A stretch of 64,000 nucleotides of DNA from Caulobacterales bacterium RIFCSPHIGHO2_01_FULL_70_19. GTDB taxonomy: Bacteria > Pseudomonadota > Alphaproteobacteria > Caulobacterales > Caulobacteraceae. Shown in pieces: positions 1,728-38,925 of this stretch (positions are counted from its first letter, which is position 1; every line of letters starts with the position of its first letter). A program made the translations under genes and the position numbers. The notes below the pieces were generated by a model. That model saw only the letters and a list, made by a program, of their open reading frames with translations, had not been told where the DNA came from and ran no database searches. The stretch spans positions 1 through 64,000 of the forward strand of contig MGLK01000042.1 in the NCBI GenBank assembly GCA_001794825.1. The letters run 5' to 3'.

Positions 1728-3314
<1,587 letters not shown>

Positions 3315-4193
3315 TCAGAGCGCTTCCGCGCCGGCGATGATCTCGATCAGTTCGGTGGTGATCTGGGCCTGGCGCTTGCGGTTGTACTGCAGGGTCAGGC
3401 TGTTGATCAGGTCGCCCGCGTTGCGCGTGGCGTTGTCCATGGCGCCCATCTGGGCCCCGAAGAAGCTGGCCTGGTTCTCGTACAGGGCGGCCAGCACCTG
3501 GGTGGTGATGTTGCGCGGCAGCAGGGTCTCGAGGATCTCCTCCTCGGACGGCTCGTAGTCGTAGACGGCGCCGTTCAGGTCGATGGGCGGCGCGTCGCCG
3601 TCGACGACCGCCGGGATCAGCTGCTTCGGCGTCGGCACCTGGGAGATGACCGACTGGAAGCGGCTGTAGAACAGGGTCACGACGTCGGCGTTGCCGGCCT
3701 CGAACTCCTCGGCGATCAGGGCCGCGACCGGCTCCGCCGCCGGCAGGCCGATGGTCTTGTGCTCCGACATCTCGAAGGTGCGGACGATGCGGTCGCCGTA
3801 GATGCGCGACAGGCCGTCGCGGACCTTGCGGCCCACGGCGACGATGCGGACGTCCTTGCCCTCGGCCAGCAGGGTCTTGATGCGCTCGCGCGCGGCCCGG
3901 ATGACGTTGGTGTTGAAGCCGCCGGCCAGACCCTTGTCGCCGGTGGCGACGACGATCAGGTGCTTCTGGTCCGAGCCCGTGCCGGCCAGCAGCTTCGGCG
4001 CCCCGTCGCCCGAGACGCCGGCCGCCAGGTTGGCGATCACGGCGGCCATCTTGCGGGCGTAGGGACGGGCGCTCTCGGCCTGCTCCTGGGCGCGCTTCAG
4101 CTTGGCCGCGGCGACCATGTTCAGGGCTTTCGTGATCTTCTGCGTGGACTTCACGCTTCCGATCCGATTGCGCATTTCCTTGAGGCTGGCCAT
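3315..4193 (-). CDS. atpG: F1F0 ATP synthase gamma subunit
   Basis: [24 protein letters not shown]...[29 protein letters not shown]. Confidence 0.97.
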
Positions 4194-36145: not shown

Positions 36146-36256
36146 GATGAGGGATGAGGGACTAGGGATGAGGGATGAGAGATTGCAGACGCGGCGCCCG
36201 GCGGGGGCCGGAACCCTTCCCAACATCATCCCCCATCCCTAATCCCTCATCCCTAT
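36146..36256. repeat. inverted pair of 7-bp-unit arrays (ORF-less), G-quadruplex-like
   Basis: left GATGAGGGATGAGGGACTAGGGATGAGGGATGAGAG (36146-36181), right arm 36224-36256 approximately reverse-complementary. Confidence 0.85.
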
Positions 36257-38446: not shown

Positions 38447-38455
38447 GAAGGTGCT

Positions 38456-38920
38456 AGGTTCTAGGTTCTAGGGGCTAGGTTCTAGGGGCTGGGGTTGCTG
38501 GGAGCCTCGCGGGAGGAGCCGATGTCGGTTCGTTCGTACCGGGACTTGATGGTCTGGAAAAAGGGTATGGACTTGGCTGCGGCGGTGTACCGACTGACGC
38601 GTCAGATGCCCAAACAAGAGGAGTACCGGATTTCTGGCCAGATGATCCGCGCGGCGACATCCATCCCGGCGAACATCGCCGAGGGACATGGCCGTGGAAC
38701 GCGCAAGGACTACGGCCACTTCGTCAGCATCGCTAAGGGCTCCCTCGCCGAACTCGAGACCTTCCTGCTCTTGGTGCGAGAACTCGACCTTGCGACGCCA
38801 GCCGCTACTGATCCAGTCCTGTCGCAAGCGGATGAAGTCGGGCGGATGCTCACCGCCCTCCGGGCCCGCCTCGTCACCCGTTCCCTTCCCCTAGAACCTA
38901 GCCCCTAGAACCTAGAACCT
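38456..38920. mobile_element. putative compact element: S23/four-helix-bundle ORF inside a perfect 33-bp inverted repeat
   Basis: AGGTTCTAGGTTCTAGGGGCTAGGTTCTAGGGG at 38456-38488; exact reverse complement at 38888-38920. Confidence 0.7.
38522..38908 (+). CDS. four-helix-bundle protein (S23 / 23S rRNA-intervening-sequence protein family, Avd-like fold)
   Basis: SYRDLMVWKKGMDLAAAVYRLTRQMPKQEEYRISGQMIRAATSIPANIAEGHGRGTRKDYGHFVSIAKGSLAELETFL; SD GGGAGGAG. Confidence 0.93.
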   Translation: MSVRSYRDLMVWKKGMDLAAAVYRLTRQMPKQEEYRISGQMIRAATSIPANIAEGHGRGTRKDYGHFVSIAKGSLAELETFLLLVRELDLATPAATDPVLSQADEVGRMLTALRARLVTRSLPLEPSP

Positions 38921-38925
38921 CCCCG

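Follow-up and report, generated by a model that had tools for sequence, protein, structure and literature searches.

Why would a lone gene for a four-helix-bundle protein of the S23 family lie between a DUF350 gene and a protease gene, enclosed by a perfect inverted repeat, when the classical home of such genes is the intervening sequence (IVS) of 23S rRNA? This question is raised by a locus in the first 64,000 nucleotides (hereafter, the window) of contig MGLK01000042.1 from Caulobacterales bacterium RIFCSPHIGHO2_01_FULL_70_19. An earlier reading of the letters alone (the original prediction) had taken the unit for an IVS-like element at a non-rRNA locus, perhaps mobilised in trans or through RNA. 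We conclude that it probably belongs to a widespread class of minute mobile elements, in which an S23 gene sits between inverted arrays of a heptamer. The mobile-element reading is well supported by the architecture, its conservation in multiple phyla, empty and filled sites, a 5-bp duplication on a plasmid, purifying selection on S23, and short copies whose arms match the type of the resident element.

Results

Heptamer arrays enclose a single S23 gene

The inverted repeat proved exact: AGGTTCTAGGTTCTAGGGGCTAGGTTCTAGGGG (38456-38488) is the reverse complement of 38888-38920 over all 33 nt, and upon extension the repeat reaches 38 nt at 95% identity (38456-38493 / 38883-38920). No other exact inverted repeat of the window with arms less than 1 kb apart comes near it in length, the match being far beyond chance. 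The original prediction, which described a fixed 33-mer, was right about the repeat and the open reading frame (ORF) but missed the defining feature, namely that both arms are head-to-tail arrays of the heptamers CTAGGTT and CTAGGGG, with 9 of the 18 CTAG tetramers in the window falling within the two arms; likewise, it overlooked an S23-less hairpin at 36146-36254. The right arm is also coding, as it provides the last S23 residues and the stop codon. The assignment of the ORF to the S23 family is confirmed by PF05635 (125 bits, 1.7e-36; cut-off 33.8) and TIGR02436 (118.9 bits, 1.1e-34; cut-off 24). With 62% GC (0.74 at third codon positions, GC3), the gene is indeed less GC-rich than its neighbours (70-77%; GC3 0.91-0.97), which profile searches identified, as proposed, as DUF350 and a trypsin-like protease. 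Pfam and NCBIfam searches of S23, the sole ORF of the element, found no transposase, and the element locus (L005) gave no Rfam match to group I or group II intron RNA.

The same architecture recurs across phyla

Eighty S23 loci were collected from GTDB genomes of many bacterial phyla, including Proteobacteria, Bacteroidota, Bacillota, Planctomycetota, Chloroflexota, Cyanobacteriota, Acidobacteriota, Fibrobacterota and the Candidate Phyla Radiation (CPR), as well as from Methanophagales archaea; as controls we used 2,282 windows shifted to other positions on these contigs. A strict test demanding arms both inverted and periodic was passed by 64 of the 80 loci against 36 of the 2,282 controls. 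The best period among the passing loci was 7 or 14 in 59, 8 in three and 9 in two, and most of the other 16 loci show heptamers by eye, albeit weaker or one-sided. Likewise, periodic arms were detectable for 103 of a wider set of 126 S23 proteins (period 7 in 97, 8 in five and 9 in one). The heptamer itself varies from locus to locus, while the two arms of one locus match, and G outnumbers C in 45 of 47 left arms; after rotation alignment a weak consensus, nTAGKGA, emerges across phyla (3.30 bits against a shuffled maximum of 2.35). Among the relatives, 24 of 61 genomes possess S23 genes, located at several unrelated sites, and inverted heptamer arrays (for instance GGCAGTA, CTAGGGG, GTGTAGG, GAGTGGC and TTAGTGA) flank nearly every one of these loci.

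Some loci depart from the common form. Octamer arms were noted, for instance, at L083, L118, L192 and L204, and nonamer arms at L116. On an Anabaena plasmid, an S23 gene located between cas6 and cas4 lies beside a huge left arm with dozens of GGTGACA / GGGAACA heptamers (L206, 1130-1400), and a near-identical plasmid (L360) lacks it.

Occupied and empty sites

Between the DUF350 and protease orthologs, where the original prediction had suggested looking for them, empty sites turned up in about 26 species of Brevundimonas, 30 loci of this genus having been read. One of them is G007, with a protease of 95% identity; only a few bases separate the DUF350 stop from the protease start there (GGCTGAGTCCATG). 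Two genomes, G018 and G223, possess an element at the orthologous site, and G014 has an insert in which the portion read contained no S23 sequence that could be recognised. The G018 copy (L155, G018:C228, about 3386-3680) has a frameshifted, decaying S23 gene and eroded arms. Among the S23 genes of the 61 relatives, those nearest to the window copy (73-77% identical) reside at other sites, in G002, G023 and G013. The unit is hence neither common to all relatives at this position nor confined to it, and a purely conserved syntenic S23 gene can be rejected on account of the empty Brevundimonas sites.

Outside the genus, a family of cyanobacterial conjugative plasmids provides the cleanest example, with filled and empty sites whose flanks are about 97% identical: an S23 element is present in Trichormus variabilis and Scytonema and missing in Aulosira, Nostoc linckia and Tolypothrix. 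The empty site reads AAAAAGTAATTAACAAATA, and the filled site, in order, AAAAAGTAAT, AAATCAGAATTCAG ... S23 ... CTCCTGAGTTCTTCTTT, GTAATTAACAAATA. The insert thus amounts to 423 bp with a 5-bp duplication, GTAAT, which holds the stop codon of the upstream gene, and Nostoc C052 retains a decayed remnant. In a second family (Nostoc ATCC 53789) a near-clear duplication was seen, with TTCT(A) repeated, again over a stop codon. More generally, 47% of arm ends lie no more than 10 nt from the stop codon of a long ORF, compared with 7% of random points, although controls restricted to intergenic DNA would give a higher value. This proximity could reflect a target preference for TNAG-like sequence or the mere survival of harmless insertions.

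Further loci deserve mention. An element with AAAAGGG-type arms on a Nostoc plasmid (L357, 1440-1946) has ~35 extra bases past its right arm with regard to the empty L363 and L364. In a Chloroflexota and a Balneolota genome (L069 and L107, around 3001-3360), an S23 element lies within what seems to be the same putative methyltransferase-like gene; as the S23 frame is closed, the host gene seems to be split.

Could the unit instead be an old, vertically inherited gene that never moves, with replication slippage and arm-to-arm template switching maintaining the regularity of its hairpin? Heptamer number does differ between near-identical copies, with five against three left-arm units in the plasmid copies and, upstream of the S23p ORF in the Coxiella IVS, three against two tandem GACAGAT heptamers depending on the strain (PMC4990558), and template switching would maintain arm complementarity. 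However, the empty sites, the clean filled and empty plasmid pairs with a target duplication, the location of S23 relatives at different sites, and the identical GGCAGTA arms of Brevundimonas and Rhizobiales render this explanation highly improbable. Slippage may nonetheless act on the arrays after insertion.

Arm sequence follows the S23 lineage

In 6,513 pairs of loci located at different sites, the closer the S23 proteins, the more alike are the arms: the mean 4-mer cosine between arms is 0.08 below 40% S23 identity, 0.28 at 55-65% and 0.43 above 65%. Permuting arms within GC classes never reproduced the observed correlation (P = 0.002; within Brevundimonas, P = 0.006). An identical GGCAGTA arm is common to S23 proteins of Brevundimonas and Rhizobiales that are ~60% identical, and four S23 proteins of Rhizobiales with octamer arms fall into one supported clade, which also includes heptamer members. 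Furthermore, dN/dS values of 0.007-0.18 reveal strong purifying selection on S23. Taken together, the correlation, the shared GGCAGTA arms, the octamer clade and the selection suggest that the arms are acted on by S23, presumably through binding. Nine residues are invariant (E33, Q40, R43, S47, N51, E54, R58, G73, E77) and, as a guess, could form a binding or catalytic surface. A phage origin of S23 was rejected, as 50,697 phage records contained no match.

The AlphaFold2 model of the window S23 is a confident bundle of four helices (pLDDT 92.8). Foldseek matched it to 2gsc (TMq 0.82-0.87), a Xanthomonas S23 protein for which PMC4990558 cites a homopentameric ring, and at a greater distance to the Avd structure 4dwl (TM 0.74, 14% identity), in agreement with the fold likeness noted originally; the Avd family models stayed below their cut-offs for the window S23 (NF033474, 28.8 bits against 80; bAvd, 21.2 against 40). 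Avd is the partner of the reverse transcriptase in diversity-generating retroelements, and this common fold lends some appeal to an RNA route, in which RNase III would cut out the transcript hairpin and reverse transcription in trans would return it to DNA; the 5-bp duplication would be compatible with target-primed reverse transcription. We consider such a route very unlikely, since the reverse transcriptase domain RVT_1 was found in only one of 12 S23-bearing genomes searched, being missing from that of the window (G000) and from 10 of the 11 others, and elements occur in either orientation to their neighbours, many of them between convergent genes.

Short hairpins lacking S23

The hairpin census covered about 200-340 kb per genome together with genome-wide pattern counts. 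In 340 kb of the window's own genome we found five S23-less heptamer hairpins: three of the CTAGGTT/CTAGGGG type of the window element, one of the GGCAGTA type of a second S23 element (L030), and one of the GGATGAG type, a heptamer that also makes up the arms of a complete S23 element in a different Brevundimonas species (L203). The last of these, that at 36146-36254, is situated between divergent genes, its right arm adjoining the ATG of a metallopeptidase-like ORF. Sampled Brevundimonas genomes with S23 yielded 21 hairpins in 1.13 Mb against three in 1.04 Mb of S23-free genomes, and few hairpins with repeat periods other than 7 were seen. Moreover, when four heptamer types were counted genome-wide in 61 Brevundimonas genomes and compared with the arm types read in S23 loci, same-type arrays occurred elsewhere in the genome in 12 of 12 cases with an S23 element of that type, but in only 17 of 76 involving S23-bearing genomes with other arm types (label-permutation P<5e-5). 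Because S23-less hairpins share the arms of resident S23 elements, mobilisation in trans, as first suggested, is supported in spirit; its RNA-based variant fared poorly, as described above.

That S23 might be a mere passenger or accessory, the ends being recognised by an unrelated transposase elsewhere in the cell and the unit being a cargo element resembling a miniature inverted-repeat transposable element (MITE), has to be weighed here, as no catalytic domain is known in S23 and S23-less hairpins exist and persist in genomes without S23. We regard this as unlikely: both the type of the arms and the length of their units go with the S23 lineage, the type of the hairpins follows the resident S23 element, and the gene is under purifying selection. 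In addition, the heptamers are unrelated among the many phyla that share the architecture, too varied for any one transposase to read.

At one hairpin location (solo site 4), the hairpins of sister species differ in their heptamers and completely in their loops, and three other species have an ordinary terminator. The complete difference of the loops disfavours in-place arm conversion as the sole cause of type switching and favours replacement or repeated insertion over slow conversion of the arms. At solo sites 2 and 3, a different palindrome, resembling repetitive extragenic palindromic (REP) sequences (GCGCTCAAGCAGCGAG ... CGAGCGTTAGCGC), fills in G007, G025 and G012 (L316, L320, L340) the gene-end gaps where sister species have heptamer hairpins.

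Hairpins replacing a terminator, arms adjoining stop codons at the frequency given above, and the match between hairpin type and S23 arms would also suit a host RNA-binding regulator, for which the hairpins would be operators or terminators at gene ends and which would control its own gene via its own arms. Such a role is quite unlikely, though, as the neighbours are functionally random (DUF350/protease, aguA/aguB, accB/accC, nrdB/nrdA, cas6/cas4, 23S rRNA), empty sites are common, and one site may hold different heptamer types and loops in sister species; nor would a regulator need its own gene between the arms at nearly every locus.

Table 1. Features of the S23 element and of the nearby hairpin (window positions)
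Feature	Position	Strand	Remarks
Left arm	38449..38494	+	Tandem heptamers, G-rich strand: CTAGGTT CTAGGTT CTAGGGG CTAGGTT CTAGGGG; start adjoins DUF350 stop codon
Shine-Dalgarno-like GGGAGGAG	38511..38518	+	5' of S23 ATG; rated good
S23 / 23S_rRNA_IVP four-helix-bundle ORF, 128 aa	38522..38908	+	PF05635, TIGR02436, AlphaFold2 model
Right arm	38883..38920	-	Reverse complement of left arm; heptamers CTAGAAC / CTAGCCC; end 5 nt before protease ATG
Extra segment missing from empty sites	38447..38925		Comparison with empty Brevundimonas sites
S23-less heptamer hairpin, GGATGAG type, taken as a non-autonomous mini-element	36146..36254		Repeat search and L203 arms

Discussion

Several observations weigh against our main reading. 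The evidence for movement is indirect, and S23 has no recognised transposase, recombinase or nuclease motif. At the window site the gap is too short to reveal a target duplication. In other filled and empty pairs a clear duplication is lacking, or there is a 3-bp overlap or a junction that has been rearranged, and no clear duplication was discerned by eye at the junctions of Anabaena 90 / Dolichospermum and Calothrix; therefore, we do not claim 5 bp as a rule. S23 is present at the aguA-aguB and DUF350-protease sites in several species, and this persistence implies that copies can be stable. Some S23-free genomes still hold hairpins. Finally, for the association between hairpin and element types, arm types were assigned and array hits inside S23 loci subtracted by hand, and since Brevundimonas genomes are related, the test is not fully independent.

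How does the window element relate to known systems? Resembling the IVSs of 23S rRNA, its ORF lies in the loop of a long terminal stem (33 bp exact); the window copy and most others, however, are located outside rRNA genes, and for IVSs heptamer arms had been neither described as general nor connected with S23-less copies or a target duplication. One S23 locus with heptamer arms, from another alphaproteobacterium (L042), lies inside a 23S rRNA gene, the only one found there, and classical IVSs thus appear to be the heptamer-armed S23 element in an rRNA loop. The description of the unit as IVS-like but at a non-rRNA locus is borne out by this case together with the empty sites in close relatives and the copies elsewhere. 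The Coxiella S23p is thought not to be produced as a protein (PMC4990558), which differs from the purifying selection on S23 seen here.

A second link leads to the heptameric simple repeats, exemplified by GGGAATC in Xanthomonas (Rehm and colleagues), which is intergenic, forms 70 convergent inverted pairs in X. campestris and often lies near stop codons, by GGGGA(T/C)T in Nostoc (both PMC4692102), and by TAACTGA in marine Beggiatoaceae (PMC4679880). They were published as repeats of unexplained origin and stated to be generally unassociated with mobile elements (PMC4692102). They share with the S23 arms the tandem arrangement, the frequent convergent inverted pairs, and the intergenic position near stop codons, and the window element likewise exhibits intergenic head-to-tail heptamers, but they were published with no link to S23. 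In two gammaproteobacterial genomes that contain such arrays, we found the S23 elements located between accB and accC to have GGGAATC-type arms. A very long perfect GGGAATC array was seen in L218 (G493:C1, about 326.8 kb), in a genome with 207 reverse-strand matches to the pattern. Within open-licence full texts, the Coxiella IVS paper was the only one found to bring S23 and heptamers together, and none was found that joined the two in general.

Other mobile systems are reminiscent in part. MITEs and insertion sequences also possess terminal inverted repeats and short non-autonomous copies, and their target duplications have a counterpart in the GTAAT of one plasmid pair and the near-clear TTCT(A) of a second, but the S23 element has no transposase and its ends are variable tandem heptamers instead of a fixed sequence. 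In the REPIN/RAYT system intergenic hairpins are, similarly, apparently kept by a protein acting in trans, whereas the S23 gene lies within the hairpin and occurs at many sites in its own right; no Y1 transposase was identified here, although no genome-wide RAYT search was made. Diversity-generating retroelements share the four-helix-bundle fold through Avd but differ by their reverse transcriptase, as the window genome has no RVT_1. We know of no described mobile-element class with the S23-plus-heptamer-arm architecture, and therefore regard the class as new. The rRNA IVSs could be its sole previously known special case or, on a stricter view, the elements could count as a form of IVS.

We propose that S23, a ring-forming and Avd-related four-helix bundle, would recognise the heptamer arms, probably in hairpin or single-stranded form, and promote insertion of its own element as well as, in trans, of S23-less hairpins. 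The ring would read the repeated units and deliver the element at a nick or fork in the gap behind a gene end, insertion being favoured in those intergenic gaps that adjoin stop codons and are rich in TNAG-like sequence; the strand-joining chemistry might be that of S23 or borrowed from the host. Classical IVSs would then be copies that landed in rRNA loops. More tentatively, as a bolder view that may well turn out wrong, S23 could be a previously unrecognised type of transposition protein, reading units of ~7 letters as single strand or hairpin and inserting at stop-codon gaps without known transposase, recombinase or reverse transcriptase. Each lineage would fix its own heptamer (or octamer) and amplify S23-less hairpins genome-wide, and this activity would underlie the 23S rRNA IVSs, the heptamers of Xanthomonas and Nostoc, and the general heptamer excess of bacteria.

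The observation behind the original prediction was right and is more important than first described, its interpretation being partly supported. It joins two loose ends in one testable system, namely the nature and spread of IVS/S23 elements and the over-representation of heptamers in bacteria, and S23 elements may explain the unexplained 7-letter repeats of many bacterial genomes. If this is true, they would, at about 420-480 bp, rank with the smallest self-encoded mobile elements known and lack every known mobility enzyme, and if S23 acts on a variable 7-nt repeat, it would represent a new nucleic-acid-handling activity. Genes annotated as "four helix bundle protein", which are common in bacteria, may accordingly be genes of elements rather than of their hosts.
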